Source: Halobacteriales archaeon QS_3_64_16 (GTDB taxonomy: Archaea > Halobacteriota > Halobacteria > Halobacteriales > Halococcaceae). From it: 64,000 bases of DNA. The translations under genes and the position numbers were made by a program. Shown in pieces: positions 4,400 to 63,357 of the stretch. Under the pieces are notes generated by a model. It did no database searches. It was given only the letters and a program-made list of their open reading frames with translations, and was not told the DNA's origin. The DNA is taken from positions 1 to 64,000 of the forward strand of contig PXRJ01000032.1 in the NCBI GenBank assembly GCA_003021705.1, read 5' to 3'. Every line of letters starts with the position of its first letter. Positions within the stretch are counted from its first letter, which is position 1.

Positions 4400-5225
4400 C
4401 AAGACGGAACGTCTTGCCCTCGCAAACTTCCCGTATGAGCCAGCCGAGTAATAGCGACAATAGACATAGGTCTGTCTCTATAGACTTCGTGGGCGAACGC
4501 ATAATTAGACGGTCTAACTATACCTATATTGCTCGTAGTTTCGCTAGTATCAAGCCCGTTCGCTTATCTCGACCGCTGGCTCATTAGTGGGACCAATCAG
4601 CTCAGCTACACAGAGGCTTCCGTTAACGTCGGTAAGTTTAATAGTAACAATTTCGTCTTCTGATGCTCCATGGACGTGTATATCCTTTCCTTGATATTTT
4701 CTTCTCGCAATTGGGTTGCCTGCGTTACTTTCTCTGTCTATCACTACAGAAAAAGAGTCACCAAGGCTAACGTTTATATTTATCTTTTCTTTCTGCTCAC
4801 TCTTACGGTGAGTACGGTTTTCTTGCTCTCATCACTTTTCTGTGGGCCCTTATCGGACTGACTGGTGCCTATATTCCGCTGAGATCGTTCATAGTCTTCA
4901 AAGTTTGTTGCTTTTCCGTCTACAATGATATTGTTGTCACTCGAAGCCCTGTCATAGAACGTACCTTGGCTGTCTCCAACGTTGCCAGGCATTGATTCGC
5001 CCGATTCGTATTGTTCATCCCTTCTGTGCCGGTATCCATAACGGTCTCTGTTATCTTGACCCATGCCACATCTCACATTACCTTACCATGTATAGTTTGC
5101 GTGTAATTTGAGATCGGTTACATTTCTGCACGTAGTGTTGCAACATGCTGTCTTATTTTGGTACAAATTATCGACAGTACAAGCGAGAAGCACCATCGTC
5201 TTATATACGCCTACAAGCAAAGCGA
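4400..5225. other. AT-rich island downstream of tRNA-Leu
   Basis: Base composition drops visibly from the GC-rich background: stretches such as ATAATTAGACGGTCTAACTA and TTTATATTTATCTTTTCTTT fill this block, which sits just 3' of a tRNA gene. That is the classic location for integrated element remnants. It carries one recognisable gene, a frameshifted TRAM-domain protein. I found only an 8-base match (CCCTCGCA, near 4421-4430) to the tRNA 3' end, too short to call an attachment site. Confidence 0.55.
4550..5064 (-). pseudogene. TRAM-domain protein, frameshifted
   Basis: Two adjacent frames look like one gene. The first (from ATG 5064) encodes a charged, disordered region beginning MGQDNRDRYGYRHRRDEQYE and stops at 4780. 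The next frame, with no plausible start of its own, reads INVSLGDSFSVVIDRESNAG, then NPIARRKYQGKDIHVHGA, then EDEIVTIKLTDV, the order of a TRAM beta-barrel. TRAM domains bind RNA. A single-base slip near 4775-4800, in an A-rich tract on the coding strand, would join the two. Codon use is AT-rich, unlike the neighbours, suggesting transfer. Alternatively these are two unrelated short ORFs; the TRAM resemblance makes that less likely. Confidence 0.55.
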
Positions 5226-5483
5226 TCAGTCGGCGGCTTCGACGGCCGTGACCTCCCCAAGAACGTCCCAGCCGTCGTCGCGCTCTTCGGCGATCAGCAG
5301 CGGATCGTCCTCGCCGTCGGTCACCAGCCGGTGGGTAATGTCGTCCGAGACGCCTTCGGCCTGGAAGGCCTCGCCGAAGAACTCCGCGCTGCTTGGTTCG
5401 AAATGGATCGTCTCCCCGCTATCGAGGGTCAGTCGAACCGGCCGCGGCGAGAGATTGTAGAGACGTTTCGCGAGCGTGTTCAT
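5226..5483 (-). CDS. Small conserved haloarchaeal protein
   Basis: An 85-residue acidic soluble protein starting MNTLAKRLYNLSPRPVRLTL. It has a beta-rich pattern with SGETIHFEPSSAEFFGEAF in the middle and ends EVTAVEAAD. GC content and acidity return to the chromosomal norm here, so it marks the end of the AT-rich island. I do not recognise a named family; function is unknown. The ATG is unique and the composition supports a real gene. Confidence 0.65.
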   Translation of the reverse strand: MNTLAKRLYNLSPRPVRLTLDSGETIHFEPSSAEFFGEAFQAEGVSDDITHRLVTDGEDDPLLIAEERDDGWDVLGEVTAVEAAD

Positions 5484-5769
5484 ACCGCCGGAGAGAGTGG
5501 CAGCGACTAAACGGTTCTGTCACGCTGAGTCGTGGTGTCGGGATTTCACTACAGCCACGTCCTCGAAACCCCCCGCGGCTCCTCGATCGGTCCCGGGCGA
5601 CGCAAGCACCACAGGCGAGCGAACGAAGTGAGTGAGCCGAGTAGCACAGCGAGAATCGGACTGTCGAGAGCCGCAGGGGGTTTCCAATCCCATCCACCGC
5701 AGGGAGAGGTGATCGCGGTCGATCCGGCGAAACGGTGGCTCTTTGCATGCAGCGCCGTACCGACCGTCC

Positions 5770-6520
5770 ATGACCAACGGTTCCGAACACGACCGGGCAA
5801 CGGTAGCCGAACGCGCCGCCCGGGCCGGCGGCGCCCTCGCACTCGAATCCTTCCGGGCGGGCATCGCGGTCGAGAAGAAATCGAGCAAGACCGACGTCGT
5901 CACCCAGGCCGATCGCGATGCACAAGAGAAGGTGAGTGCGATCGTCGCCGAGAGTTACTCCGAGGAGCCGATCGTCGGCGAGGAGGGCGACGAACTGAAA
6001 GAAGTTCCCGAGTCGGGGCTAGCGTGGGTGATCGACCCCATCGACGGGACGAACAACTACGTCCGAGGGATCAGGACCTGGGCGACGAGCGTCGCCGCGA
6101 CGAGCGAGGGCGAGCCGATCGCAGCGGCGAACGTCATGCCCGCCCTCGGTGATACCTATCTCGCCGGTCGGGAGCGCGCGACGTTGGGCAGTGACCGCCT
6201 GGCCGGGGACGAGCCGACCCGAGACCTATACTCGCCTCACAAACACGTTGGTACAGGAGTTCGGCGACCTGCGGCGCTTCGGCTGCGCGCAGGCGACCCT
6301 CTCGTTCGTCGCGAGCGGCGCGCTCGATGCCGTGATAACGAACATCGATCCGAACCCCTGGGACACTCTGGCAGGAGTGTGTCTGATCCGGCGGGCCGGC
6401 GGCCGAGTAAGTAAGATCGACGGCGAGCGCTGGAAGGGTTCCGGAGGCTTGGTCGCGTCGAACGGCGAGAACGGGATCCACGAGGCAGCCCTCGACGTCG
6501 CCGACGTGCTTCGGAACTGA
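5770..6520 (+). pseudogene. Inositol monophosphatase family gene, frameshifted with internal deletion
   Basis: The N-terminal part has the substrate and metal motifs of the IMPase/FBPase superfamily: IVGEEGDELKE near residues 67-77 and WVIDPIDGTNNYVRG near residues 87-101. The same frame then runs into nonsense after LAGRERATLGSDRL. The C-terminal half continues one frame over with EFGDLRRFGCAQATLSFVAS and the second metal motif NPWDTLAGVCLIRRAGG, ending at 6520. Family members have roughly 30-40 residues between these two parts that are missing here, so the lesion near 6190-6250 looks like a deletion that shifts frame. Intact enzymes hydrolyse inositol phosphate, NADP or fructose bisphosphate. 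The product is probably inactive. Confidence 0.8.
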
Positions 6521-6616
6521 TCGACCGCCGGTCGGCTCCTGCGATCCCCCCTCACGATCGTGTGTGAGTCCTACAGGACCGGAACCGTCAAACCCGAGCC
6601 GGTTCACGACCGGCAT

Positions 6617-7765
6617 ATGGCGGCCATCGAGGGACGCGTCGATCCCGTTCGAGCCTGGGTCCTCGCGGCGATCGCCGGGACCGTCGCGCTGCTCGGCGGC
6701 GCGCTCGCCTTCCCGCGGGCGGTCTACGATCGGTTCATCTGGCAGTACTTCTGGGGACCGGTACACGCCGACGCGGCCGGTGCCCGGTGTGCAGTCCGTG
6801 CCGGTAGCGACGTCAGACTGCGGGATAGCGCGGACGCCTGTGCGACAGCAGTCTCCCGAGGAGCGATCGTCGCCGAGCCGGGCTATACGGTCGTCTCGGA
6901 GATCGGCTATGCGGTGATACTGCTATTCATGCTTCTGGGGGTGTGGTTCATGCTGCGAGAACTCGACCTCGGGCGCGATCGGGCGTTTTTCTTCGCGCTG
7001 CTGCCGTTCATGTTCTTCGGCGGCGCGCTGCGGGTCGTCGAGGACGCGAACGTCGCGCTCGCGGCGGGGGGCGAATCCGCAATCTCCTACCCGCTCAGTA
7101 CGATCATCATCAGTCCTGTCATCTACTTCACGGTCTTCGCGGTCACGCTCGCGGCCGTTCTGGCGAGCGTCTGGCTCGCACGCGAACAGCGATTCGACGT
7201 TCAGGAGTACAGCCGCCCGCTGCTCTGGGCCGGGATCGCGGTACTTGCGGGCACGATCGTCCTCCTCTTTGCGCTCGCGGTCGGTACCCGGTCCGTAGCG
7301 TTCTACCCACAGATGTCGATCCTCGTCCTGGGGATCACGACCCTCGTCGCCGGGGGCGTCTGGGCCGGCGTGCGTCGTTTCGCCCCGGAGATCACGTACG
7401 GAACAGCAGGCATCGGCTTCGTGATCCTCTGGGGCCATACCTTGGATGGGGTGGCGAACGTCATCGCTTCTGACTGGGCGCAGGCGATCGGCCTACCCTT
7501 CGAGTACAGCGCGAAACACCCGGTTAATCGCTTCATCATCGACGCTACCCAAGGGATCCTCCCACCGTCGCTCACCGCGACTATCGGGACGGCCTGGCCG
7601 TTTCTGCTCGTGAAGATCGTCGCCGCTCTAGCGGTGGTCTGGCTGTTCGACGAGACGATCTTCGAGGAGAGTCCCCGGTATGCTATTCTCCTCCTCGTCG
7701 CGATCCTCGCCGTCGGACTCGGACCAGGGACGCGGGACATGCTTCGAGCGACCTTCGGGATCTAG
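6617..7765 (+). CDS. DUF63 family membrane protein
   Basis: A 382-residue polytopic membrane protein, with about eight or nine hydrophobic helices, the first near residues 12-30. [31 protein letters not shown] and [11 protein letters not shown] are recognisable DUF63 segments. DUF63 proteins are found in archaea and have no known activity. I chose ATG 6617 ([16 protein letters not shown]), just before the first helix, over the more upstream GTG at 6560. Codon use is typical of the region and the gene is intact despite the broken gene immediately upstream. Confidence 0.85.
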
Positions 7766-7994
7766 GAGCGCACCTTTTTGCCAAGGTCCTCGCTCGCTTC
7801 GTCCGTGATTCGAGAGCGTTGCTCTCGCCCGCCATAAAAACGCTTACTCGCGCCTCCGGCGCTCGTTCGCGCGTGCAACAGTGGTCGACAGCACCCCGAT
7901 GCCGGTTGGCGCACAGTCGATCAGCTATGACGCCAAACTCGGACAGCCGTCCCCGTATCGCGGGGCTCAAACGCTGGGAGGGCCGAGATCACGC

Positions 7995-9175: not shown

Positions 9176-10712
9176 TCAGTACCGGTATTCCGTGCCCTCC
9201 GTGGTGTCCTCGATCTCGACGCCGACCTCGCGTAGTTCCTCGCGCAGCGCGTCGGCCCGGTCGTACTCGCCAGCCTCTCGGGCGCGCTCGCGGGCGTCGA
9301 GGATCGTCTCGATGAGGGGCTCAGCGATCGAGACGTTGCCCTCTACCGCAGCGCTCGTGCCGAAGGCCAGTCCTAGTACGTCCTCGCCGAAGGTTTCCAG
9401 AGTCTCGATCGCTCGCCTGAGCCCCCGGTAGTCGTATTTATCGTTCCCGTCGAGGTGGCGATTGATGGCACCGGCGAGTGCGAGCAACGCGGCCTGGCCC
9501 TCCCGCGTGTCGAAGTCGTCGTTCAGCGCCGCCGTGAAATCCGTGCGTGCGCCCTCGGTCGCCTCGCGCAGTGCCGGATCCCCCGCTTTCGTCCGGGCGT
9601 CGGGGCCGTCTACCGCCCCGATCGCCCGATCGTAGGCCCGCGAGAGGCGCGCGAAGCGCTCTTCGGACTCTGAAATCGCCTCTTCGCTGTAGGTCTGGGT
9701 GCTATTGTACGCGCCCGCGGTGAGGAAGGTGCGCAGGACGTTCGTGCCGTACTCGCCGATCGCCTCTCCGACGGTGATGAAGTTCCCCAGGCTCGAACTC
9801 ATCTTCTCCTCTGCCGTCTCGAAGAGGTCGGCGTGTAGCCAGTAGCGGACGAACTCGGTACCCGAGGCGGCTTCGCTCTGGGCGATCTCGTTTTCGTGGT
9901 GCGGGAAGACGAGATCACGGCCACCGACGTGGATGTCGATCGTCTCGCCCAGGTGAGTCATGCTCATCGCCGAGCACTCGATATGCCAGCCGGGTCTGCC
10001 CTCACCCCACGGCGACTCGAAGACCTGGCCTGCCGGCGCTCCCTCGGTGCCCGCCTCGGCGGGGTTCTCCACGGAGTTCTCGCTCTCGACGCCCTCGTGG
10101 CGGTGTTCGGCGATCGCTTCCGGCGAGACCCCACCCGATTTCCAGAGCGCGAAGTCCGCCGGGTGGCGTTTCTCTCCGCGCTCCTCGGGGTCGCCCTGGG
10201 TTTCGATCTCCTCGACGCGCTGGTTCGAGAGCTTACCGTACTCGGGAAAAGCGGTGACGTCGAAGTACACTGAACCGTTCGCCTCGTAGGCGTAGCCGCC
10301 CTCGATCAGCGTCTCAATCAGCTCGATTACCTCCGGGACGTGCTCGGAAACCCGCGGATAGACCGTCGCGCGCTCCAGGTTGAGCCCGCGCATCGCCGCA
10401 AGCGTCCGTGCGATGTAGGTTCGGGCGACCTCGCTCTCGCTGTCGCCGAGATCGCTTCGTCCTACTCGTGCGACGATCTTCTCGTTCACGTCGGTCGTTC
10501 ACGTCGGTGAAGTTCTCGACGTGACGAACCTCGTAGCCCAGATACGAGAGCCAGCGGGCCATTACGTCGACGTGGACCCACGAGCGGGCGTGACCGAGGT
10601 GTGGCGGAGCAGAGACCGTTAGACCACAGTAGTACAGCAAAACGTCCTCGGGATCGCGTGGTTCGAACGGTCGCTTCTCGCCGGTCAGCGTGTCGGTCAC
10701 GCACAACGCCAT
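9176..10712 (-). pseudogene. cysS: Cysteinyl-tRNA synthetase gene split by 13-bp tandem duplication
   Basis: The gene starts at ATG 10712 with MALCVTDTLTGEKRPFEPRD and includes the zinc cysteine in LLYYCGLTV and the HIGH-type motif PPHLGHARSWVHVD. The frame breaks in ENFTDVNDR. The rest reads on in another frame from VNEKIVARVG, with zinc ligands in HIECSAMSM and [11 protein letters not shown] and the KMSKS-type loop EEKMSSSLGNF, to 9176. The break coincides exactly with a duplicated 13-mer (10483-10508); removing one copy restores a single reading frame of about 500 residues. CysRS charges tRNA-Cys and is normally required unless another copy or the SepRS/SepCysS route exists. As written, neither half carries both catalytic motifs. 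Confidence 0.92.
10483..10508. repeat. Exact 13-bp tandem duplication inside cysS
   Basis: CGTTCACGTCGGT occurs twice head to tail (10483-10495 and 10496-10508). One copy encodes the expected NFTDVNEK junction of CysRS on the minus strand; the second copy adds 13 bases and shifts the frame by one. Perfect identity suggests a recent event. Confidence 0.97.
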
Positions 10713-17804: not shown

Positions 17805-18110
17805 ATGATAGACAGGCTTGAGAAAGAAGTAGACATGCTCGAACGCCATCTAGAAGTTCTCCGGATGGTGATCGACAGCGAGCCGATCGGGATCGTGAAG
17901 ATGTCGAACGAGACCGGCTACCCCCACCACAAGGTCCGCTACTCGCTTCGCGTGCTCGAAGAGGAGACGCTGATCGAGCCCTCTAGTCAGGGTGCGATCA
18001 CGACCGACCGGACCTCCGAATTCGTCGACGAACTCGACGGGAAGGTAGACACCGTTGTCGAGAAACTAGAGGGAATGAAAATCGAGAACGCCGCCGAGAT
18101 CGAGTCCTAA
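17805..18110 (+). CDS. Winged-helix DNA-binding protein
   Basis: A 101-residue protein. MIDRLEKEVDMLERHLEVLR forms an N-terminal coiled helix; KMSNETGYPHHKVRYSLRVL near residues 33-52 is the recognition-helix region, followed by EEETLIEPSSQGAITTDR, a wing. The C-terminus DELDGKVDTVVEKLEGMKIE is a second coiled helix, suggesting a dimer. It is a small haloarchaeal regulator with unknown targets. CCTTTAAAAACC at 17769-17780 is a good TATA element at about -27 from the start. Confidence 0.8.
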   Translation: MIDRLEKEVDMLERHLEVLRMVIDSEPIGIVKMSNETGYPHHKVRYSLRVLEEETLIEPSSQGAITTDRTSEFVDELDGKVDTVVEKLEGMKIENAAEIES

Positions 18111-18252
18111 GAGGGTATCGAGCGCCCCGGGCGTATCGACGGTCGATCGCTGAGGAGCAGCGGCAGCTAGCGCCACCGCCGCCGACGGACAGCCAGCGGT
18201 ACGGCGAAGGTTCGGCAGGCGAGTAGACGGACGCCAGCTTCGGGCTCTAATA

Positions 18253-20139
18253 CTACAGTTCTGGGACCTGAGATGGAAGCTTCCGTCCAGCGCTTCGACG
18301 AGACAGAGGTGATAGCCCTGCCGCCGGGAGCGGTCGACGAAGCTCTTCCGCGAGTCGCGGCTGAGAAAGCCACTGTCGGTTACTTCCGCGGCGGTCTCCA
18401 AGGAGTCGGGCTCGAAGTACCCGCCCGAGATCACAAACGCGCTCGCGAGGGTGCCGGTGGTCTCGTCGACGCGATTGGCGGCGGTGAGCAGGTCGGTGAC
18501 GCGTTCGACCGGCACTGGCGAGGGACTCTCCTCGAGGCATGCGACTAGTAGGGGATCGTCCATTCGATCGCGAAAGACGACATCGAAGCGCTCGGTATCG
18601 CGTCTCGTCTCGCTGTCGGTTACGTATTCGACGTCGATCGTCCCCTGGAGATCCGCCTGGTCGATCGTAGGGATCGCCTCTTCGAGTGCGCCCAGTGCCG
18701 TTACGTCGCCCGTCGCGCGGATCTCGAAGAGGAGCGCGCCGAGCAGCCACTCGACGAAGCGGTACTCAGCGCTCGACTCGAGGAAGTCCTGGAAGTTCGT
18801 GCCGGCGACGCGGGCGTCGGCCGTATCGAGGTCGGTGTGGGGGGCGAGCCAGCGGTTCGCACGCACCGCCGATCGCTCGGCGTCCTCGCCTCCCTCAGCG
18901 CTCGCGAGCGTTGGGGCGCCGAGGGAGTCGTAGCGGACGAGCAGCGTCGCGGCCGCGAGTGCCGTCCCGGGCTCGTATTCGTCCGGTTCAGCCGGCTCGA
19001 CCGGCTCGGCCGGCGGACTCGGTATCAGGTCGGTCGTCGTCCGCGCGGGCAGGACCCGCTCCTGCGGAGAAACCGTTGGTCTCGGGCCGGTCGTCGCGGT
19101 CGGTCGGCCTGTCGTGGGTACCCTGGCGTTCCCGGCCGACGTCGATACCGCCGTCCACACCGGCGACGGGCGGCCCGCGGTTCGTCCCCGACCGGTAGTC
19201 CTCGATCGCCGCTTCGAGCCGAGAGACCTCCGCGCGAAGGCGGTCGCGTTCGGCGAGCGTTCCGGTGACGGTGGCTATCGGGGCCACGATCGAGTTCGTC
19301 GGTAGGTTCTCGGCACCTTCACCCACGAGCGACGCGGAGTCGGCCACTCCTGTCGTGGTTCGTCTTTCGGTTCCGTCGTCGGCCGCGTTCCGGCCGTCGG
19401 AGCCGTTCGCAGCCACCGACGTCGACTCGGTGCCGAACTCAAGGTCGGGTTCGGAGTCGGCGTCGTCGCCGGAATCGAAGGCGGAGTCGGGGCCGAGATC
19501 GGATCGGGAGTCGGCCTCGGAGCTGGACTCAGGGCCGGAATCAGGGATAGCGACGGGATCGAGGGGTACTCCTCGCGTCTCGTAGACCCTCGCGCGCTCG
19601 CGGGCGCGATCGACGGCTTGCCGGTCGGTTCGGACGCCCCGCTCGCGGTTCTCATCTAAGGCTACCGGCGTCGCCTCGCCGTCGTCGTAGACGACGTAAC
19701 ACGCCCTCTGGAGGTCCGTCCCGATGAGTTCGATATAACCTGTGAAGTCGGCGGGGAGCGCTTCCTCGACGGCCGGAAGGGTCCCCTCGGTGTGGAGGTC
19801 GCCCCGCTCCTCGCCGGCGCGTTCGGTCATCGCCCGGAGTAGCACTGGCGCAGGGTCGGGAGCAGCGACAGCACGGCCCTCCCGGCCCTCGAAGGCCTCG
19901 ATGTCGCCGTCGAACACGCCCCGGACCTCGCCATCGACCATCGCGAGCCACGGGTCCGGAGGATCTCCTGCCGCTTCGCGATCGGCTGCGGCCAGGTCGT
20001 CGGCCTCCCCTGGTACCCCCCTCTAGAGGCGGACGATTCCCGTGAGGGAGGCAGCGGCGAGCCGACTCAGCTCCGCGAGTCCGCCCGCGAACGGCCGGGC
20101 GTCGCTCTCGTCGATCGAGGGGACTGTGAGTTCGTTCAT
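18253..20139 (-). pseudogene. DUF7527-like haloarchaeal gene with amber codon and frameshifts
   Basis: Reading starts at ATG 20139 (MNELTVPSIDESDARPFAGG) and hits an in-frame TAG at 20023-20025 right after GIVRL, then continues in the same frame through DPWLAMVDGEVRGVFDGDIE and an acidic middle. Near 18990-19080 the conserved text moves one frame over to EPAEPDEYEPGTALAAATLL, LESSAEYRFVEWLLGALLFE and SRRQGYHLCLVEALDGSFHL. Near 18270 another slip would give the expected ending VPEL at 18253. Homologues, which I recall as DUF7527, are single proteins of about 600 residues with unknown function. Three independent lesions make this a firm pseudogene if the sequence is right. Confidence 0.85.
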
Positions 20140-20290
20140 ACGACATCATCGACGAATTGCGACAAATAGGTTCCGACGGTTATAATCCGTTAACGTACGG
20201 TTTCGAGGGTTTTCGAAACGAATGAGCCGGAGCGGGGTCGCAGGAAGCAAGCGGCACAACACCTTAGACCGGCCCGATCGGACTCCGGGT

Positions 20291-21143
20291 ATGACCGATT
20301 CCGACTGGGGCGAGTGGCTCCCGACGGCGGTCGCCGAGGCCGACCCCGAGGGGGGTCGCGATCTGGTATCTCGGCTGTAATGGCTTCGTGCTCAAAGGAG
20401 ATGAGGGAACGACCCTGTTCGTCGATCCCTATCTCGGGACCGGCGACCCGCCTCGAACGATACGGATGCTCCCGGTGCCCTTCTCGCCGGAGGACATCGT
20501 TGCGGCCGACGCGCTGTTGGCGACCCACGAGCACACCGATCACGTCCACGGCCCGAGCCAGGCCCCGATCCTCGAGTACACCGACGCGGAGTACTTCGCG
20601 CCCGACGATTCGCTCTCAGTCGCGCTCGAGGAAGAGGACTGGCCCGCCGAGTACGACGTCAAGGAGGAGCGATTCACCGAGGTGAGCGAGGGCGAGGACT
20701 TCGAGGTCGGCGAGTTCACCATCCACGTCGAGCACGCCCATGACCCGGACGCGACCCATCCGGTATCCTACGTTATCGAGCACGAGGCGAGGACCTTCTT
20801 CCATGCCGGCGACGCGCGCGCGAGCGAGGCCTTCGAGGACATCGGCGAGGACTACGACCTCGATTGCGGGGCGATCGCCTTCGGCACCGTCGGGCAGCTA
20901 CGCGAGGGCGAGACCGGCGAGCGAAAGCGGACGCGGTGGTACAACGACGAGAACGGGGTCGTCGAGGCGGCGAACCAGCTCCGAGTCGATCGACTCGTCC
21001 CCACCCACTGGGACATGTGGAAGGGTCTCACCGCCGATCCCACCGTCTTGCACCGCCACGCCTCGAGTTTCCCCTACCCGCGCTCGCTCGATGTCCGTGA
21101 GATCGGCGACCGGATCGATCTCGACGATCGCGACCGATCGTGA
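20291..21143 (+). pseudogene. UlaG-like metallo-beta-lactamase-fold hydrolase gene, frameshifted in a G-run
   Basis: From ATG 20291 the frame reads MTDSDWGEWLPTAVAEADPE and then terminates early. Deleting one G from the six-G run at 20350-20355 restores GVAIWYLGCNGFVLKGDEGT and a continuous protein of about 283 residues. Beyond the slip are the metal motif THEHTDHVHGP, HVEHAHDPDATHPVSYVIEH, FHAGDARASEAF and VPTHWDMWKG. The fold resembles UlaG-type metal-dependent hydrolases with unknown substrate. Because the lesion is one base in a homopolymer, sequencing error is a live alternative and the gene may be intact. It is divergent from the DUF7527-like pseudogene. Confidence 0.8.
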
Positions 21144-27957: not shown

Positions 27958-28776
27958 TCAGTCGTCGGCGGTCGCGCCGCCGACCTGGTTCTGTCTCGTG
28001 CCCTGGAGTTCTAAGGTATCCAGGTTCGCGAGCAGGATATACCCGAAGCCGACCTTCGCCGAGAGGTCGAGTACCATGAACCCGGCGGTCTCCCAGAACA
28101 GCGGGATCAGGCCAAGGCCCTCGGTACCGACGATCCACAGTACCGGATAGACTGCCCAGAGGACGATCAGGACGTTCCGGAGTTGACTGAACAGCGAGTT
28201 CGCCGCGCCCGACCGCCGGGAGGCCATCTCCGAAACCTGGCCGACCAGGAAGTAAAGCAATATGACGAGGAAGGCGGTGGAGACGCCCCACCAGATGATC
28301 CGTGCGGTGAGCGGGTCAAGGTTTCCGGGAGCGTTCGAACCGGTCAACGCGGCGAGTACCCCAGTACCGATCATCGCGACGTCGAGGCCGACGAGCGTCG
28401 CGATCGTGTTTCGGTCCGCGCCGACGAGCAACGCGAGGTCGATCAGTAGCAGCGGCGTCGTGAACAGCCAGTCGGCATAGCGTGCCCAGTAGATCGCGTG
28501 GGTCTCCCCGCCCCACTGTACCCCCGTGACGCCGAAGCCGAGCGCCATCGCGAGGTACATCGTGAAGGCGATCGCGGGGATGAAGATCGTGATGACGTAG
28601 TGTTCGATACGCCGCTGATCGGTCTCCCCCCAGCCCATGCCGATGAACGCTAGCATGCCGAGGAACATCCCGGCGGTACCAAGCCACAGCCAGATCGATT
28701 CGCCGCCGACCTCGACGCTTCCTGCCTGCAACACGACCGCGGCCGTGTTGAGTAACGCTGGTAGTGATTGTACCAT
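27958..28776 (-). CDS. bop: Bacteriorhodopsin, light-driven proton pump
   Basis: A 272-residue seven-helix opsin. Helix C reads [20 protein letters not shown], with the proton acceptor Asp102, Thr106 and proton donor Asp113 equivalent to bacteriorhodopsin D85, T89 and D96. Helix G has [14 protein letters not shown] with the retinal lysine Lys241. The proton-release glutamates are also present (Glu219 and Glu229, matching E194 and E204). All residues therefore fit an outward proton pump in the cell membrane. The N-terminal extension [20 protein letters not shown] resembles the processed precursor segment. It is preceded by a bop-type activating sequence and lies downstream of bat. Confidence 0.97.
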
Positions 28777-28814
28777 GCGGTAGAATACATATGCCGGGTG
28801 AGTAAAACGGTCAT

Positions 28815-28829
28815 ACCCGACTAGTTGGG
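28815..28829 (-). promoter_or_regulatory. bop upstream activating sequence (UAS)
   Basis: ACCCGACTAGTTGGG matches the published Halobacterium bop-regulon UAS consensus ACC-C/A-n-ACTAGTT-n-GG at every defined position. It lies 39-53 bases upstream of the bop ATG, the expected distance for a nearly leaderless bop transcript. It is the presumed Bat-responsive element; a TTTTACTC element lies between it and the start as TATA candidate. Confidence 0.88.
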
Positions 28830-28892
28830 TAACCCAAGCTAGTTGAACTCGAGAAGGCGAGCGGAGCCTGGTCGGGGTAAGCACCCTGGTAG

Positions 28893-31037
28893 TCAGCGCT
28901 CGAAGAAGACCGTGGCGAGCTTCCGCTCGGCGGCCCGGAGGTGCTGGTGGAACGTCGAGCGCGAGATGCCCATCGACGCCGCGAGGTCCTCGCCGTCGAC
29001 GAGGCGGGGTTTCTCGAAGAAACCGCTCACGTGTGCCAACCGAAGCGCCGTCAGTTGGCGGTCGGTGAGTCGCTCCTCGACCGCAGTGAGGAATTCGCTT
29101 TCGGTCCGGGCGGGTCGCTCGCGCTCGTGATATTCCACGAGATCGATGCTGCCGTACCGGTCTTCGAGCGCGTCGGCGACCGAGCGGGCGTCGCGCTCCC
29201 GGGGGAGTGTCACACATAACCGACAGGCACCGTCCTCGGCAGTGATGTTACGTATCATCGCCCCCCGATCGGCGAGCACCGAGGCGATGGAGGGTTCGGC
29301 GAGTTCGAACTCGAAGAGGCAGTCGTCCTCGCGTTCGGTGATCGGACTCGCCGCCGCGATCTCCCGGCAGTCCCGCGCGAGGGGCGCGATTCGGTCGGCG
29401 GGCGCGCCCGAGACCCGCACGAAAAACAGGCTTTCCTCGCCTATCTCGAAGGTGAGTTCGAGGACGTCCTCGGCGGCGAGAACGCGTTTGCTCTCCAGAG
29501 CGTCGATCGTCGTCGCAGCGGCGTTACAGAGCGCTTCGAGCACGGCGAGTTCGCGCTCGTCGATCCCTTTACCCGCCTCAGTGTAGACCGAAAGCACTCC
29601 ATAGAGAGTATCCCGAGCGGCGATCGGGATCGCGGCACCGGTACCGACGCCACCGACCGTATCGAAGGCAGCGGACTCCCGACGATCGCGCTCCTCGTCG
29701 CTGTCACGACCCCCGAGCCCGCTTTCGAAGTCGTTCGATCCGTCGCGATCGGTGCTCGGCCTCCCTTCGGGGCGGGCGCTGGGGCTCCGGGCGGTGATCG
29801 GCAGCGCGGGGTCGGTCTCGATTCCGGTTCGGCGCTCCGCGATCGCGGTCCCGAGAGCACTCCCATCGAGGGTCCCGGTCGCGAGGTCGAGGGAAACGCC
29901 CGGTTCGGGGAGGACAGCGGCGAGGGCGCCCACGTTCGCCTCGGCCTTCGCTTCGAGGCTGAGGGTTTCGCCGGTCGGGTCGGGGTCACCGATCCAGGCG
30001 AGGGTGTAGGGTGTGGTGGCGGCGGCGATGCCTTCGACGAGGGCCCGCTCGGCCGCCTCGCGCCTGTCGGCCCGCAGCAGCGCCTCGGTCGTCTCCTGAA
30101 GCAGGCCCTTGATGCGATCAAGCAGGCGATCGAGGCTCGCACGCTCCCTCGCGAGCGTTTCTGCCTTCCGTTTGCCCTCGCGCTCGGCACGCTTGCGGTT
30201 GGTGACGTCGGCCTGGAAGCCGACGTAGTGCGTGAGGGTTCCGTCGCCGTCTCTCAGCGGGGCGATATCGACCTCGTTCCAGAAGGGGGTGCCGTCCTTA
30301 CGATAGTTGATGAGTTCGACCGAGACGGGCCGGTCCTCACGGATCGCCTCGCGCATCTCGGCGATCGCCGCCGGGTCCGAGCGCTCGCCCTGGAGGAAGC
30401 GGCAATTATGCCCGAGTACGGCCTCGCGCGCGTAGCCGGTGATCCGCTCGAAAGCGTCGTTGACGTAGACCAGCGGGTAGTCCGACGCTGTGGCATCGGA
30501 GATAGTGATGCCGACCGGCGCTGCGTCCATCGCACGCTCCTTCAGCCGGAGGGCGTCGGTGACCGGTCCGGCCGTACTCCCTTCCCCGTGTGCGCTAGAT
30601 CTCCCCGCTTCCGTCTCCGTTCTCGCTCTGTCGGCGTCCCTCGCGTCGAGTGCCGCCTCGATCCGACAGTCGAGTGGCTCCTCCTTCGTTCCCTCCCTCT
30701 CATCCCTATCCTCGCACTCGCTTCGGGGAACGTACTCGGTGACGCCCGCACTGATCGCCCTGCCGGCGAGGGCTTCGCTGCCATCCGTAGGCACGAGGAC
30801 GAACGGAAGGTGGGGGTACTCGGCGCGGACGGCACGCAAAAGGCCGAGCCCGTCGATCTCAGGGAGACGATACTCGCTCACGACGGCGTCGACGCGTTCG
30901 CTAGCGAGGCGTCGGAGGCCGGCTTCGGCACTCGGTGCGACGATCAGGCCTCGATCCTCACATCGGAGGACACGGGGGAGATTCGTCCGGTCGGCGACGA
31001 CGAGAACCGACGGCTTCGGGGACTCCGACTCGTGCAT
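28893..31037 (-). CDS. bat: Bacterio-opsin activator Bat, receiver-LOV-GAF-HTH
   Basis: A 714-residue soluble regulator. Residues 10-112 are a receiver-like domain whose phosphoacceptor position is Glu55 ([14 protein letters not shown]). A PAS domain near 165-285 contains [13 protein letters not shown] with Cys212, the flavin-adduct cysteine of LOV photosensors. A GAF-type region spans about 320-510. The bacterio-opsin-activator domain and C-terminal HTH ([40 protein letters not shown]) finish the chain. Bat activates bop, brp and carotenoid genes under low oxygen and light. It lies directly upstream of bop and divergent from the lycopene cyclase gene, so its targets are its neighbours. Confidence 0.93.
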
Positions 31038-31224
31038 AGAGGAGGTACGGTGGGCCCCTACATAATCCTCACCGCTGGCGGACTTGTGCTATGAAGCGAC
31101 ACTGCCATTACTCGGCCGGTCCGAGTGTGAGGGGTATGAGCCGACGAGCGCGATCGCGACCGGAACGGACACGCCGAGGGTCGATCGCGGCCCGTCGACA
31201 GCATTCCGGCGAACGCTCGTTCCC

Positions 31225-32112
31225 ATGAGCACGCTGCTCACGTATGCAGGCTTTCACCTGCTGTTCCTCGTTCCGCCGATCGCGCTACTGATACTGGCGC
31301 TTTCGTTCGCCGATCGGATCGCCCGTCCGCGAGAAGCGATCGCCGGCGTCGTGCTCCTGACGGCGATCGCGACGATCTACACGACGCCCTGGGACAACTA
31401 CCTCATCGCCCGGGGAGTCTGGACCTACGCCGAGGGGACTGTCCTCGCCAGATTGGGGCGAGCGCCGATCGAGGAGTACGCTTTCTTCGTGCTCCAACCG
31501 GTGCTCGCGGGGCTGTGGTTCCTGTGGCTCGGCTACGCGCCCAGTCCCGAGTGTACGGTCGGTGTGCGCGCTCGCCTCCTCGGTGCCGGGGTCTGGCTGG
31601 CCGTCGCGGTGGGCGGGGCGTGGCTGCTCGGCGTTCCGGGGGGGTTGTACCTCGGGGCGATCGCTCTCTGGGCGGCCCCGATCGCCGCTCTCCAGTGGGC
31701 GCTGGGCGGCCCGGTACTCTGGCGGAATCGTCGGCTGCTCGCGCTCTCGGTCGCCGTCCCGACGCTGTATCTGAGTTTTATCGATCGGATCGCCATCGAA
31801 CTCGAGATCTGGCGGCTCTCGCCCGCCCACACGACCGGACTCGATCCCCTCGGACTGCCGATCGAGGAAGGGGTCTTCTTCCTCGTGACGACGACGCTCG
31901 TCGTCCAAGGACTGATACTCTTCCATTGGGTCCTCGAGCGCGTGCGAGCGGGCGGGCGCGCCTATGGCCGTGCGGGGCTGGTACCGATCGAACGGGTGCG
32001 GTCGCCGAGACGGTCGGCGGCTCTGGACAGTTCGACGGAGCAGCCGGGGTCGGGACCGGAGGAAACGAGCGACGGACCCGAGCTCGACCGAAGCGGGCGG
32101 GGCGAGGCGTGA
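31225..32112 (+). CDS. crtY: Lycopene beta-cyclase, CarR/CrtY-type membrane protein
   Basis: A 295-residue membrane protein with about seven helices comprising two fused lycopene-cyclase repeats. Each carries the family hallmark: TTPWDNYLIARGVWTYAEGT with RAPIEEYAFFVLQP in repeat one, and YLSFIDRIAIELEIWRLSPA with GLPIEEGVFFLVTTT in repeat two. It converts lycopene to beta-carotene, the precursor of retinal. I chose ATG 31225 at the first helix; earlier in-frame codons give non-conserved sequence. The stop overlaps the GTG start of brp by four bases, so the pair is translationally coupled. Confidence 0.92.
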   Translation: MSTLLTYAGFHLLFLVPPIALLILALSFADRIARPREAIAGVVLLTAIATIYTTPWDNYLIARGVWTYAEGTVLARLGRAPIEEYAFFVLQPVLAGLWFLWLGYAPSPECTVGVRARLLGAGVWLAVAVGGAWLLGVPGGLYLGAIALWAAPIAALQWALGGPVLWRNRRLLALSVAVPTLYLSFIDRIAIELEIWRLSPAHTTGLDPLGLPIEEGVFFLVTTTLVVQGLILFHWVLERVRAGGRAYGRAGLVPIERVRSPRRSAALDSSTEQPGSGPEETSDGPELDRSGRGEA

Positions 32113-33179
32113 GTACGCGAACGTCGCTCGCCGCCGGAACGGACGGGAAACTCAAGCGAACGATCTTCGCACCCGTCTGGATCGCACTCGCGGTCGCTGC
32201 CCTTCCCTTCGCGCTCGGGCTCTCGGTGCCGCTGTGGGTGCAGTACGTCCCCTTTCTCGCGAGCGTTCTGGTACTCGGTCTCCCTCATGGAGCGGTCGAT
32301 CACCTCGCGGCGGCCCGCCTCGATGGGTCGGGGGCCGGTTCCGAGGGACCGATCGATCGCCCGCTCGCCGCCGTCGGCTCGCTCTACCTGCTGGCCGGCG
32401 GAGCGTACCTGCTGGCCTGGCTTCTCGCGCCGGCAGCGTCGTTCGTTTTCTTCATCGCGCTGACGTGGTTTCACTGGGGCCAGGGCGACCTGTACGTACT
32501 CACCGTGCTCCCCGAGCGGACCCACCTTCGCTCGCCCGCCCAACGCCTGCTCTGTGTGCTCCTCCGTGGCGGCCTACCGATGATCGTCCCCTTGCTCGCC
32601 TTTCCGGCGATCTATCGCGAGATCGCCCGCACAATGATAGAACTGTTCGACCCGGGCGCGATCACGCTACTCGATCCGGTTTTCGCGTTCGGGACGCGTC
32701 TCGCGCTCGGGATCGGGCTCGGGGCGCTGTCGCTCGGGGCGCTCGCACTCGGCTATCGGCGCGCGGAGGGGGCAGTTCAGCGACGAACCTGGCGTCTCGA
32801 TGCCGCCGAGACGGCACTCCTCTGGGGATTTTTCCTTCTCGTCCCGCCGATACTCGCCGTTGGCCTCTATTTCTGTCTGTGGCACTCCCTGCGCCACGTC
32901 GTCCGCGTGATCGCCCTCGGGGAAGAGTCCGATACCGGAATCACCGGAACGAATACTACCGATACCAGCCGATCGGTCGCCCGGGAGTTCGCTCGCTTCG
33001 CCCGCGAGGCCGCGCCGCTCACCGTCAGTGCGCTCGTGATCTTCGCCGGACTCTACCTTTTGGCGCCAGTCACCGATATCCTGGGTCTGATCGCGCTCTA
33101 TCTGGTCCTACTGGCGATACTTACCCTGCCACACGTCCTCGTCGTCACCTGGATGGACGGTAAGCAAGGGATCTGGTAG
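32109..33179 (+). CDS. brp: Brp/Blh beta-carotene 15,15'-dioxygenase
   Basis: A 356-residue polytopic membrane enzyme that cleaves beta-carotene to two retinals, the chromophore of the adjacent bacteriorhodopsin. The iron-binding histidines lie in LGLPHGAVDHLAAAR, ALTWFHWGQGDLYVLT, CLWHSLRHVVRVIAL and LPHVLVVTWMDGKQGIW, the order of Brp/Blh proteins. The GTG start overlaps the crtY stop (GTGA). The gene ends in TAG. Membrane segments number about eight. Confidence 0.94.
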   Translation: MSTRTSLAAGTDGKLKRTIFAPVWIALAVAALPFALGLSVPLWVQYVPFLASVLVLGLPHGAVDHLAAARLDGSGAGSEGPIDRPLAAVGSLYLLAGGAYLLAWLLAPAASFVFFIALTWFHWGQGDLYVLTVLPERTHLRSPAQRLLCVLLRGGLPMIVPLLAFPAIYREIARTMIELFDPGAITLLDPVFAFGTRLALGIGLGALSLGALALGYRRAEGAVQRRTWRLDAAETALLWGFFLLVPPILAVGLYFCLWHSLRHVVRVIALGEESDTGITGTNTTDTSRSVAREFARFAREAAPLTVSALVIFAGLYLLAPVTDILGLIALYLVLLAILTLPHVLVVTWMDGKQGIW

Positions 33180-33584: not shown

Positions 33585-35418
33585 TCAGGAGGTCGGCTCC
33601 GACAGGGATGTGTCATTCGCCCGCGCCCGATCGCGCACGCGGACGATCAGCACGCCCCGGTTCCGGTAAGCGACCTCGTAGCGCTTCGAGCGCTCGAATT
33701 CGCTCGCCAGTTCGCCCCACTGTGCCGCGGAGAACTCGCTGCGGGCGGTCCAGCTCCGCGAGCCCTCTCGCGGAACGTAGAGGTACGTCGGAGATGCCGA
33801 AGACTTCGGCGACCTCGTGGACGCCCTGGGGAGTGAGGCTGGGGCGGTGGTTTCGACCACCCGTGTGAGACACCGCGCCGTCCGGCACTCGGCGGCCGCC
33901 CGGTAGCGCTCGATCTGCCCCTCGCGTTCGGGCGGCGGGAGCCACTTCGCGCCCCACGGCGAGGCGACCGAACTCCGGTCCGCGAGCAGGGGGAAAACCA
34001 CTCGGCGGCGTCCCCGGCGACCAGAAACGTCGCTTCTCGGGGTGTGTTCCGGCGCGCCCAGCCCATTGCTCGCACGTCCGCGCTATTGACGTAGGCGGGC
34101 AGCGGATTCGAAAGGAGGCGATCGAGCGGGCGCTCGGGGATCGGCTCGTAGTTCGCGGCGTACAACGCCCCCGTCGTCGCTCCATAGAACACGAGTACCG
34201 AGAGCACCGCGCATACAGCGACTCGGTCGTGTCGCCCGGGGTCGAACCAACCCGAGACGCTGGGCGCCGATCTCCGAGTCTACGTCGCTATCGGCGTCGG
34301 CAGCAGCACGGACGTCCGCGTCGGCACCGGTATCAATATCGCCCTCGGCGCTGCCGACGAGCATCGGCAGGAAGCCCTCGAGGAGAAAGGCACTCGCGGG
34401 GAAGGCTCCGATGAACAGCAGGAATCGGGGCTCGGGGTAGACCAGCGCGGTGACGGCGAACCAGCTCACGAGGAAGTACCGTCGCCGCGCGAGGAAGTAA
34501 AGCACCCCTAAGAGGACGAAGACGTGCCAGAGCGCGAGCAGTCGGGTCGCGGGCAGGTACCCGAAGTTCGTCGGGAACCAGAGCGGCCCCTGGCTGATCC
34601 CGAGCCGGGAGCCCGAGGTCCTGGCGAACACCGAAAGGCCGTGCTAGAAGAGAACGGTAAGCCACCACGGCGACGCGAGAGTCGCCCCTCCGAGGGCGAC
34701 GAGCGTGCCGTACGCGAGGCCCCGGAGCGAGCGGTCGCGAGCGAGATAGAAATATAGAGTCCCTGACCCGAACGGCACGGGATAGAGGGGATGGGTCAGG
34801 ACAACCAGGCCGAACAGGATCGTGGTGGGAAACAGCCATCGCCGGCCGTCCGCGAAGATCCGGTAGCCGGTATACAACCCACAGACCGTGAAGAAGAAGG
34901 CAAAGGTGCGGACGACCCCGCCCGCCGAGAGGTGCCAGGTGAGCACGGCGGGGCTGCTCGCGACGATCACGGCCGCGAAGCCGGCCTGCCCGTTCGAGCC
35001 GAGTAGCTCCCGGCCCAGCGCGTAGGTCGGAACCAGGGCGACGATCGTGAGAAGCCCGGGCAGGAAGCGTGCGAGCGCGAGTGGGGAGACCCCGGCGTCG
35101 AGCAGCGCTGCGAGCGAGTAGAAGGCCAGCGGCGGGTACGCGAAGGGAATTCCACCGGGCGTGTAGCCAGCGAGGCGTGTGGGCAAGGCGTAGCCGTTCT
35201 CGGCGAGAGCCTCTGCCATCGCGAGGAAGAGCCCGCCGCCGAGCGCGGGGAACGGGTAGGTGAACGGATACGCGGCGTAGACGACGACGCCGACGGCGAG
35301 TGCGGGACCGAGTGCGAGGAGCGGGCGCGAGGCGACGAGTGACGACGCTGGGGGTGTGGATTTCCCCCCGGGGATCGTGTCCGTCGGCGGTCGAGTCGGT
35401 AGACCTGCCGGCCGGCAT
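33585..35418 (-). pseudogene. Membrane glycosyltransferase-like gene with multiple lesions
   Basis: The intended protein of about 610 residues would be a GT39/STT3-like polytopic enzyme. It starts MPAGRSTDSTADGHDP (35418), then shifts frame in a six-base homopolymer (35364-35369) into SRPLLALGPALAVGVVVYAA and ENGYALPTRLAGYTPGGIPF. An in-frame TAG stands at 34644-34646 after SPWWLTVLF; the frame resumes with HGLSVFARTSGSRLGISQGP. A further slip near 34255 moves to GWFDPGRHDRVAVCAVLSVL, another near 34000 to FPLLADRSSVASPWGAKWLP, and a compensating pair near 33780-33830 surrounds VHEVAEVFGIS. The periplasmic-type C-domain ends at 33585. Five or more lesions mark clear decay. Relatives transfer lipid-linked sugars to the cell surface. 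Confidence 0.85.
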
Positions 35419-38394: not shown

Positions 38395-39549
38395 TTAGGT
38401 GGTGGCGATTCCAGGAGGGGCCGGGCGGTCGGCAGCGGGCTCGGTCGAGAACCCCGCAGGCATCGAGCGAGTACTCCTCGAGGCCTGAGCCTGCTCGTAG
38501 TCGACGAAACGAACCTGGACGGTGACCGGCCGGTTGGCAGCGCTGCTGATGCGATCACGAAGCAGGTTCGCTAGTAGTGGGTACTCTACTTCGGCGGTGC
38601 GGCCAACAGTGACCGTCACCGTCGACTGGCCGCCGACATTAAAGACATCGCCGGTGTAGGAGGTGCTGACACCCATGAGTTCGAGCGTCTCGTAGGTGTC
38701 GCTATCGAGAGTGGTCTGGACTTCGCTGTTGACCGACTGCTGGAAGGTGAGGTACTGGTAGGTCCCGAAGGTCGCCAGCGCGAGGGCAAGGACGAACACC
38801 ACGATAGCGAGTACGTACGCGCCGGTACGGGCGCTGAGCGTGAACTGCTCGCGGGCCCCCGCGATGATCGAGGAGCGATAGCCGAGCGCGACCAGCCCGA
38901 CGTAGGTAGTGAGGTTGATCGTGACGACGTTCATCACCAAGAGGACGATCGCCGCCGCGACCGCGATGCCGGTGATCGCCGTGGGGAGATCAGTCGCGAG
39001 CGCGAGGGCGCCGACCGCACTGGCGGCGATCGCGATCGCCAGTGCGAGCAGGCTCGGCGTGATGAACGAGGCTACCTGATCGAGCCTGGTGATCGCGAGC
39101 GACGGCGGGACGAAAGAGGTACTCCGAGCGAGGAGGCTCACCCCGGTCGCGCCGAGAAGCGCAACGAGGACGACGGTCGCCGAACTGAGAAGGAGACCGG
39201 CGACCGCGACGACCGCACTCAACGCGGCGAAGGCGACGTAGGTCCGCCGATCGGGCGTGAGGTCCTCGGCGCGTTCGCGCAGGCTCGAGTTGTCGATCCC
39301 GGGTCCCTCGTCGGGACCTTCGACGTACTGGTCGTCGAGGTCCGAAAGGCTCAGATCAGCATCGGCAGCGACGTCCCCGTCGGCGATGACCGCGTGGCTC
39401 TCCTTTGAGAGCCCGATGTCGTAGAGCTCGTCGAGGACGGGCTCTGCGCCCCCCTGGGGGACTGGGACGTACAATACAGTGGCGTCCCGCGGTGGGGTCT
39501 CGTCGGTTTGGAGACGGGTCGCCCCCATCTCGTCCAATCTGTCGGTCAC
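38395..39549 (-). CDS. DUF389 membrane protein, N-terminus probably damaged
   Basis: A 384-residue protein: a cytoplasmic ferredoxin-like N-domain (MTDRLDEMGATRLQTDETPP, PVPQGGAEPVLDELYDIGL), then six helices with LLARSTSFVPPSLAITRLDQ and VVTINLTTYVGLVALGYRSS, the DUF389 core. Function unknown. The normal first strand is encoded upstream in frame: LLQILVPRDRLVP. It is preceded by GTG-TAA at 39594-39589, so codon 2 is a stop where relatives would read GTG-CAA or similar. As written, translation would begin at GTG 39549 and lose the first strand. Confidence 0.78.
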   Translation of the reverse strand: MTDRLDEMGATRLQTDETPPRDATVLYVPVPQGGAEPVLDELYDIGLSKESHAVIADGDVAADADLSLSDLDDQYVEGPDEGPGIDNSSLRERAEDLTPDRRTYVAFAALSAVVAVAGLLLSSATVVLVALLGATGVSLLARSTSFVPPSLAITRLDQVASFITPSLLALAIAIAASAVGALALATDLPTAITGIAVAAAIVLLVMNVVTINLTTYVGLVALGYRSSIIAGAREQFTLSARTGAYVLAIVVFVLALALATFGTYQYLTFQQSVNSEVQTTLDSDTYETLELMGVSTSYTGDVFNVGGQSTVTVTVGRTAEVEYPLLANLLRDRISSAANRPVTVQVRFVDYEQAQASRSTRSMPAGFSTEPAADRPAPPGIATT

Positions 39550-39777
39550 CGGGACGAGCCGATCGCGCGGAACCAGTATCTGAAGCAGTTACACTACCCG
39601 TTCTGTGCAAGTGACCTCCATTACGCTTCTGGCATCGCGGTACGAGCCGAGAAGAAAGGAGAGAGATGTTGCGGAAGCGATCGACGGTTGCCGGCGCGTA
39701 TCAGGCGTGAGGAAGCGCCAACGCGTCCCAGCGGAGAAGCGAGGTGTGCGATAGGTCCCGTGGTCGGCGAGCGAGCC

Positions 39778-51028: not shown

Positions 51029-51032
51029 GGTC

Positions 51033-57353: not shown

Positions 57354-59047
57354 ATGAGCGTCGGGATCGTGGGGGCGGGACCCGCGACCGAGAGCGTCGC
57401 GACGGTACTCGGCGACGAAGAGATCGACACCGAGACCATCGAACCGGAAGCAGTCTCCGACGTCGATCTCGCGGTCGTCGTCGATAGCGTCGGGGCGTCG
57501 GGGTTCGATGCTGCGAACGAGGCAGCGCTTGCGGCCACGGACAGCGAGTGGATCGGCGTCGAACTCGGCGGGATCGGCGGGCACGCTCTCGAGGGCGTCG
57601 AGGCGGCGGTCACGGGGTTCGGCCCGGATACGGGCTGTTTCGAGTGTCTCGGTGCCCGGGTGGCGGCGAACGCCGATCCAGGAGGACGAAGAGGAGAGAC
57701 CGGCGGTGCCAGGAGTGACGGGATCGCCGAGTCGGGGTCATCGAGCGGCGTCAAGAGCGCGACCGCCCGCCTCGCGGGCACGATCGCCGGCCGGAAAGCC
57801 CTGCGAACACTCGCGGGCGCGTCGGTCGCTGGGGTGATCGAACTTCCCTACGCGGAGCGAGGGCTGCTCGCGGTACCGAACTGTTGGTGTTGCCCGGAGA
57901 GCGATCGAGGAAGTCGGTTCGGCAGCCTCGATCGGAACGACGAGGGTCGGGAACTAGAGGAGTCACTCGCTCGTGCCGAACGGGCGCTCGATCCCCGGCT
58001 CGGAGTCGTGAGCGAGATCGGGGAAGCCGCTTCGTTCCCGGTGCCGTACTACCTCGCGCGCCTGGGCGATACGACTTCCTTCAGCGACGCGCAGGCGACG
58101 CCACAGGCCGCAGGCGTCGCCGCTGACTGGAACGCGGCGTTCATGAAAGCGATCGGCGAAGGGCTCGAACGTTACTGTGCTGGCGTCTACCGGACCGAGG
58201 ACCTCATGAGAGCGAGGCCGGGCGATCTCGATCGGGCGATCGCTCCTTCGGAGTTCGTCCAACCGGACAGTGACAGCGACCCGGACGAACCGATCCGGTG
58301 GGTCACAGGTGAGACGCTCGCGAGCGGTTCGGAAGTACTGGTTCCGGCGACCGCCGCGCTCTTCCCACCACCTCAAGGACGCTTTCGGCCGGCGATCACG
58401 ACGGGTCTCGGGCTCGGGAACTCGGGCACCGAGGCGCTGCTGTCGGGGCTGTACGAGACCATCGAGCGGGACGCGACGATGCTCGGGTGGTACTCGACGT
58501 TCGAGCCATTAGGTCTCGACGTCGAGAGCGAACGGTTCAGGACGCTCGAGGGACGTGCCCGAGCGGTAGGGCTCTCGGCGACGGCACTGCTCGTGACCCA
58601 GGACGTAGACGTCCCCGTCCTGACGGTTGCACTCCACCGCGAGGGCGAGTGGCCGCGTTTTGCGGTCGGGTCGGACGCCGATCTCGACGCAGCACGGGCG
58701 GCCGAGTCCGCACTCGCCGAAGCGCTCCAGAACTGGATCGAACTCAGGGGGAGCTTCTCGATGTCGATCGCACGATCTCAGCCGGAAGCGTCGGGACTGA
58801 TGTCTCCGGCCGCGAGGAACTCGAGACCGTGCTCGATCGTCTCACCAGAGCAAGCCTCGGTTCCTATGGCGTTCGTCTCACGACGCGGGACATCGAGGAA
58901 CTCGGATTCGAAGCCGTCCGGGTACTCGTTCCCGCAGCACAGCCGCTGTTCACCGGCGAGCCCTTCTTCGGCGAGCGGGCACGCACTGTACCCGAGGGTT
59001 CGGGATTCGCACCGCGACTCGATCGCGATCCCCATCCCTATCCGTGA
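57354..59047 (+). pseudogene. E1-like/YcaO cyclodehydratase gene, frameshifted with internal deletion
   Basis: The N-terminal 200 residues form an E1-like domain (MSVGIVGAGPATESVATVLG) with zinc cysteines in GCFECLGARV and NCWCCPE. The YcaO domain follows: AAFMKAIGEGLERYCAGVYR, GLGLGNSGTEALLSGLYETI and ERDATMLGWYSTF. After LAEALQNWIELR the frame fails; the conserved end continues one frame over (RTISAGSVGTDVSGREELET) and finishes RLDRDPHPYP at 59047. That PHPYP end is the PxPxP motif essential in azoline-forming YcaO enzymes. About 20-28 residues expected at the junction (58750-58770) are missing. Intact homologues would ATP-dependently cyclise Cys/Ser/Thr in peptides or act on another amide; no precursor gene is seen nearby. 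Confidence 0.82.
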
Positions 59048-59944: not shown

Positions 59945-60055
59945 AGGAACCCCGTTCGACGCCTCGGTACTTCAGTGTACGTGCGAAAGACTTCGGTGGC
60001 GATCTACGGGACAGTATCGGGACGAACAGATCGATACCATCGCGTGACCGGTCTC

Positions 60056-61645: not shown

Positions 61646-62006
61646 GATCGTTCGATACCGGGATGTGCCGGCAGGTAAAGATTGCCATGTGGTGTGGGGT
61701 CGGTGCTCGAATAGATCACCGACGAGTGCTGAGGACGGTGATCGCGACAGGAGGACGCCCAGTCGGGAGTCGGAATCCGTCGGTTCGGCCGTCTTCCGAC
61801 GCTGGCGCTGGAGCCCCCGAGCGGACGGTACGAACCGAGACCGATCGGCGACCCCACCTGCTGAACGGGTGAGTGCGGTCGGGTGAAGCGACCGGCGGGG
61901 CTAATAGTTATGTGTCTCCCCCGATATCGTGGAGAGTATCGGTACCGAAACCCACGGTCTCCGGACGGTGGCGGGAGTGACCGATGGGCTTCACCGAACC
62001 ACAACG
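61646..62006. other. Divergent regulatory region before the ABC operon
   Basis: 361 bases between the acyl-CoA synthetase start and the solute-binding protein gene. GGGCTAATAGTTATGTG near 61898-61914 holds the best TATA-like element, about 95 bases before the downstream ATG. Frames here are Arg/Pro-rich with no conserved sequence, so no gene is called. Confidence 0.45.
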
Positions 62007-63357
62007 ATGACACCACAGGACACGACCGACGACGGCACGGACGACGAGACGGACGGAACGGGACGAACGAACCGGCCGAAGACGAGGCGACGGGACTTCC
62101 TCGCGGCCACGGGCGCGGGCGTCGGCGCGTTCGGGCTGGCCGGCTGTGTCGGTAACCTCGGCGGGCCCGGAGGCGGCGGTGGCGGTGGTGGCGGCGGTGA
62201 CGGCCCGATCAAGGTCGGCCACCTTGCGCCGGTGCAACTCGACATGGGGAAGGGATCGATGCGAAGCGCCCGCCTCGCCGTCGAGGAGATCAATAGTAAT
62301 GGCGGCATCATGGACCGAGACGTCGAGCTGGTCGAAGGCGACACCCAGGCCAGTCCCTCGCAGGCGAGCAACCTGGTGAACGAGATGGTGAACCAGGACA
62401 ACGTCAGCATGATCAGCGGGACCTTTGCTTCGGAGGTCACGCTCGGGATCCTCGATCGGGTCGGCAACACCGGCGTGCCTCTCCTCGATACCGGGTCGGC
62501 CTCGCCCCGGATCACCCAGGAATACCCGGCACAGGACTACGAGACGTTCAAGAACGTCTTCCGGGTAGGACCGGTGAACTCGAACTTCCAGGCCGACCTG
62601 CTGGCGGATTACGGCAAGTTCCTCTCTGATACCCACGGGTGGAATTCCTTTGCGGTCGTCGTTGAGGACGCCGAGTGGACCAAACCCATGACCCAGCGGA
62701 CCGGACAGCGCATGGAAGCGGAACACGGACTGGAGGTGACGATGACCCAGCGGATCGCACCGGACACCTCCGATTTCGCGCCCGTCCTCGACTCGATCGC
62801 GAACTCGGGGGCCGACGCCCATATCAAGGCCATCTCACACATCACCGGGACCGCGATGCTCTCCTCGTGGGGATCGAACGACTACCCCTTCGGCGAGGAA
62901 GGCATCAACGTCGCCTCGATGTCGCCCCAATACTGGGGTGACACCAACGGAGGGTGTCTCTACGAGACGACCTCCGAGACCGGCGCGGCCGGTGTGGCCC
63001 CTATCACCGAAAAGACCGTGCCGTTCGCGAAGCAGTACGAGGAAAAACACGCCGAGTCGCGGCCCACCGCGCCGATGTACATGGGATTTGGCACCTACGA
63101 CGCCATGTACGTCTACAAGAACGCCGTCGAGGCCGCGGGGACGGCGAACTACCAGGAGAACCTCGATACGATCGTCGCCGAGCTCGAGGGAACTGATTAC
63201 ACGGGAACGTCAGGGCTTCCCGGTGGTACAGTGGCAAGAGGAAGGATCGGGCGGTGAGGAAGAGTTCGATCCGGTTTCCGGACCCGGCAGGAAAGTCGCC
63301 GTCTGGCCCGAGGAGTTCGCGACCGGCAAGCACGTCGCCCCGCCGTGGATGGGCTGA
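62007..63357 (+). pseudogene. livK: LivK-type ABC substrate-binding lipoprotein gene, frameshifted with deletion
   Basis: The N-terminus carries a twin-arginine lipoprotein signal: RRRDFLAATGAG then FGLAGC, the lipobox cysteine near residue 50. The mature part matches periplasmic-binding type I proteins of branched-chain amino-acid importers: IKVGHLAPVQLDMGKGSMRS, LAVEEINSNGGIMDRDVELV and TFASEVTLGILDRVGNTGVP. After ELEGTDYTGTSGLPGG the frame fails; a plausible native end, FPVVQWQEEGSGGEEEFDPV and VWPEEFATGKHVAPPWMG, lies one frame over, ending at 63357. The usual 20-30 residues between are missing. The adjacent livH-like permease suggests the transporter would be nonfunctional unless another binding protein serves it. 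Confidence 0.82.

Follow-up and report, generated by a model that had tools for sequence, protein, structure and literature searches.

Gene disruption across a draft haloarchaeal genome and its probable origin in assembly gaps

Why do so many genes appear broken in a single contig of a haloarchaeal genome? The window considered here is the whole 64,000-nucleotide (nt) stretch analysed, contig C32 (PXRJ01000032.1) of the draft genome of Halobacteriales archaeon QS_3_64_16 (hereafter G000; 2.83 Mb in 70 contigs). The original prediction, made by reading the sequence, named nine lesioned genes: a TRAM-like protein, an inositol monophosphatase (IMPase), cysS, a DUF7527 protein, an MBL-fold hydrolase, a membrane glycosyltransferase, a DUF389 protein, a YcaO enzyme and LivK. 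It described their density as unusual and offered either rapid decay or a poorly corrected assembly as the cause. All nine genes do deviate from intact homologues when aligned to relatives. Between the two causes, the assembly is favoured and can be refined to mostly deletions arising at gap closing, with decay perhaps accounting for one or two genes. We estimate a probability of roughly 85% that most of the breakage is an assembly artefact affecting the whole draft rather than the mark of a decaying organism.

The window's own genome has an estimated completeness of 79.15%, and its contamination is not measurable. The RNA polymerase A1 subunit has no match anywhere in G000, which fits an incomplete draft. 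The sister drafts G003 and G001 belong to the same genus, and G002 was counted with them among the genus members examined; G006, G008 and G009 are finished relatives. G003 is collinear with most of the window at about 84% DNA identity, and G001 is collinear only with approximately 24.4-61.6 kb of it, at about 77% DNA identity. Collinearity with these two drafts makes a comparison of orthologues possible for every lesion in the collinear parts.

Broken genes in the window, the genome and its relatives

A gene was scored as broken if its reading frame is intact in one genome of a pair and disrupted in the orthologue of the other. The sequence read for this count covers 1.18 Mb of G000 (42% of the genome) and 0.72 Mb of G003. 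Requiring an intact G003 orthologue leads to undercounting, equally inside and outside the window. The claim of an unusual density does not hold by this measure, as the window has 2 broken genes among 49 testable orthologues and the rest of G000 has 11 among 139 (Fisher p=0.52). Raw counts reach 13/188 in G000 and 10/205 in G003. The finished pair G006 and G008 yields 2/181 and 3/180 (1.1-1.7%; together 5/361), over which both G000 (p=0.0014) and G003 (p=0.025) show an excess. Curation by eye, which removed spurious or reversed cases, leaves about 9/185 in G000, 5/200 in G003 and 3/361 in the finished pair. None of 93 orthologues is broken between the finished G006 and G009. Broken genes are in excess over finished relatives, and they are a trait of the whole genome, found also in the sister drafts G003 and G001. 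The window is no hot spot. Detecting frame switches from codon usage was tried as well and rejected because rates are not comparable across genomes; the finished G009 came out far above the drafts, a result contradicted by homology.

Missing blocks and understated gaps

Blocks missing from exactly one genome were listed from a three-way alignment of G000, G003 and G001 over 37 kb. The dominant lesion is the loss of a block of 40-130 nt, not base slippage. Nine single-genome deletions of 40-128 nt lie in genes, with 81, 69, 114-117 and 73 nt lost in G000, 82, 48 and 89 nt in G003, and 40 and 128 nt in G001, which also lacks a block of 22 nt. No insertions of 40-130 nt were found inside called genes in this alignment. 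Four of the nine deletion lengths are divisible by three, with a third expected by chance, which argues for a deletion process blind to the reading frame. Outside the three-way region, 64 nt are gone from a menC-like gene of G000. In G003, a loss of 106 nt took the signature loop out of purB, mutS is 83 nt short, and valS is split with about 85 nt absent.

Isolated small frameshifting insertions or deletions (indels) number only one to three per genome in the 37 kb; of seven in all, three lie in the glycosyltransferase-like or the DUF389-like gene. Slippage is hence not the main theme. Homopolymer errors in unpolished long reads could account for the surplus G in the MBL-fold gene and for the one base lost from an acetate-CoA ligase-like gene of G000. 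However, isolated small indels are too rare and block deletions too predominant for such errors to be the general cause, and the estimated N gaps in the scaffolds point to paired short reads. An origin in long-read errors is therefore extremely unlikely.

Where these assemblies mark a gap by N, a relative reveals how much sequence is truly absent. Runs of N within G000 are 2-267 long. For nine measurable runs in these assemblies, the true gap length taken from the relative exceeds the N count by 93, 36, 4, 87, -15, 89, 75, 115 and 131 nt. Six of the nine runs understate the gap by 75-131 nt, similar in size to the N-free deletions (40-128 nt), which suggests that many gaps were closed without N. 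Scaffold or coverage gaps with a length underestimated as zero or less would have led to contigs being joined without any N. Near-identical islands shared by G000 and G003, which would be a sign of chimeric contigs, are not found at the lesions.

Haloarchaea are polyploid, and broken and intact alleles might both be real in polyploid or mixed cells, with the assembly having kept the deleted allele. Polyploidy could let a broken cysS allele coexist with an intact one, and the drafts come from related species with possibly shared habitats. Yet such population variants would require hundreds of alleles of the same size class in several species, and their agreement with the underestimated N gaps would be coincidence, which makes this explanation very unlikely. 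It is extremely unlikely that the genus truly bears hundreds of frame-blind, gene-internal deletions of 40-130 nt, cysS included, for which intact alleles in polyploid cells or other gene products compensate.

Individual lesions and signals of selection

The gene cysS (cysteinyl-tRNA synthetase; 9179-10700, minus strand) is single-copy in G000, where a perfect tandem duplication of 13 bp at 10482 breaks it and leaves two pieces that lie in different frames. Haloarchaea are not known to have another route to Cys-tRNA. Of the 41 genomes compared, G000 alone has the gene split; searches of the other 40 turned up neither a frame change nor a stop that divides it. No general excess of perfect tandem duplications was found. 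Under an assembly origin, the duplication would represent a contig overlap left untrimmed; it may also be a genuine mutation.

Several genes lack blocks that relatives retain. The IMPase family gene (5770-6520, plus strand) lacks about 53 nt near 6196, which places its second half out of frame; G001, G002 and most other relatives have the gene whole, and G003 has a different, larger deletion within the same stretch. The YcaO-domain gene (57354-59044, plus strand) carries a 73-nt deletion at 58752 of a block kept in G003 and G001. The LivK-type binding protein gene (61929-63357, plus strand) continues in another frame for its last part after a loss near 63213 of about 65-70 nt, a length estimated from distant homologues (such as one on G003:C14, 39% identity). 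Two genes have in-frame losses overlooked in the original prediction. The bat-like regulator (29420-31037, minus strand) lost 81 nt at 29419, a block kept in G003 and G001, and its match to the PF15915 BAT profile begins only at profile position 39. The DUF389-like gene (38398-39590, minus strand) is interrupted by a stop at the second codon, counted from the homologous start, and additionally lacks 69 nt (38942) and 114-117 nt (39168). G003 and G001 retain both blocks in conserved form, and G001 is without a different block of 128 nt.

The membrane glycosyltransferase-like gene (33600-35400, minus strand) accumulates a TAG stop at 34644, a 2-nt insertion at 33994 and a 27-nt insertion at 33798. 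Its orthologue is a single open reading frame of 607 amino acids in G001 and is broken otherwise in G003, by an 82-nt loss. Other lesions are small frame changes. The MBL-fold hydrolase gene (20291-21140, plus strand) has a run of G near 20350 that is one base too long; the G003 orthologue runs as a single frame (MTDSDWGEWLP..AGVAIWYLGCNGFAL), and the window copy requires a frame change. The DUF7527 protein gene (18240-19980, minus strand; PF24371, E=7.6e-77) changes frame near 19040 and again close to its C-terminal end, and its homologues are in one frame. The TRAM-like small protein gene (4553-5076, minus strand) occupies two frames, split near 4800. Read through, it gives 174 amino acids that match plasmid-borne proteins of Halobacterium, Halalkaliarchaeum, Natrinema and Halalkalicoccus at 33-40% identity over 87-89%, each of these four being a single protein; no homologue was found among 20 relatives. 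Of the names used here, IMPase, cysS, DUF7527, MBL (beta-lactamase superfamily), YcaO and LivK are backed by Pfam. Pfam returned no match for the C-terminal piece of the TRAM-like protein, for the 191-amino-acid piece tested of the glycosyltransferase-like protein or for the DUF389-like open reading frame of the window, and these three names stem from the first reading of the sequence.

Genuine genome decay, with a lineage gathering pseudogenes as in Haloquadratum walsbyi, would predict relaxed selection beyond the lesions. The share of changes at third codon positions after the lesion, in the original frame, is 0.55-0.59 in the YcaO, IMPase and MBL-fold genes, and 102 of 177 changes in cysS are at third positions after re-phasing. 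Intact neighbours have shares of 0.58-0.82, with the fast ones at 0.58-0.59. Codons past the lesions hence show continued purifying selection. The glycosyltransferase-like gene has the lowest signal (0.42-0.43), the only hint of relaxation. Decay could account for the several lesion types, for the weak signal and the different breaks of this gene in G000 and G003, and for the clustering of the stop and small indels there and in the DUF389-like gene. Pseudogene-rich haloarchaea also exist, as H. walsbyi has >300 pseudogenes (PMC3119063). Degraded transposases and conserved hypotheticals make up the bulk of these, however (PMC3119063), and the losses observed here are frame-blind, lack insertions of matching size in genes and affect indispensable or housekeeping genes (cysS in G000; valS, purB and mutS in G003). 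Housekeeping enzymes but no transposase stand among the broken genes named here, with 42% of G000 read. As a general explanation, decay is unlikely. The glycosyltransferase-like gene may nevertheless be a true pseudogene in both G000 and G003 and is the best candidate for decay; the small lesions of the DUF389-like gene are perhaps true decay too.

Some features of the surroundings were recorded along the way. The segment 4431-5226 is AT-rich, lies directly downstream of a tRNA-Leu (CAA) and is about 740 nt longer than its G003 equivalent. Together with its gene of plasmid homology, it is likely a small integrated remnant. The DUF7527 gene region (18110-20252) is absent from G001-G003 and several genomes of the same family, and present in more distant relatives. 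The bat-like regulator is part of a retinal-pump cluster (27961-33176), along with a bacteriorhodopsin-like gene, a lycopene-cyclase-domain gene and a Brp/Blh family gene. The rhodopsin gene of this cluster in G001 is without 40 nt; an apparent tandem duplication there was rejected as it is really this deletion. In G003, the orthologues of window positions 7880 and 7956 are separated by about 1.9 kb extra (G003:C88 24990-26990), which holds a reading frame of 415 amino acids.

A probable assembly artefact and its relation to known systems

An assembly origin is favoured by the single-copy cysS that is unsplit in relatives, by selection persisting past the lesions and by N gaps that are too short. 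Several points weigh against it. A comparison of assemblies does not prove any individual lesion to be an error. The curated excess in G003 is not significant on its own (p=0.14), some calls of broken genes after curation are judgement calls, and divergence within the finished control pair (93% amino acid identity) is lower than between G000 and G003, so that fewer real indels are expected there. Taken by itself, G000 keeps the frame at three of its four block losses within the three-way alignment. The shifts of 1-2 nt in the MBL-fold, TRAM-like and DUF7527 genes are not accounted for by the gap model, and the cysS duplication belongs to no excess of perfect tandem repeats. The stop in the glycosyltransferase-like gene is two substitutions away from the G003 sequence and has a mutational look.

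The broken genes most likely represent, in the main, an ordinary assembly artefact, and their value is as a warning for the annotation of such genomes. Gene loss, pseudogene counts and the 79% completeness of G000 and its sister drafts should not be taken as biology. Block losses that stay in frame escape gene callers and would pass for protein variants: the DUF389-like protein, for instance, for a form lacking two conserved blocks, and the bat-like regulator for one whose BAT domain is truncated.

Like H. walsbyi, G000 is a haloarchaeon with many disrupted reading frames; unlike in H. walsbyi, housekeeping genes of the drafts are affected here, regardless of frame. The closer likeness is to misassembly at scaffold or coverage gaps in draft or metagenome-assembled genomes, with which the present case shares short frame-blind losses, affected essential genes, a genome-wide spread, the involvement of several drafts and N gaps in the same assemblies. 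In contrast to such misassembly, most joins here are N-free, so the losses resemble real deletions.
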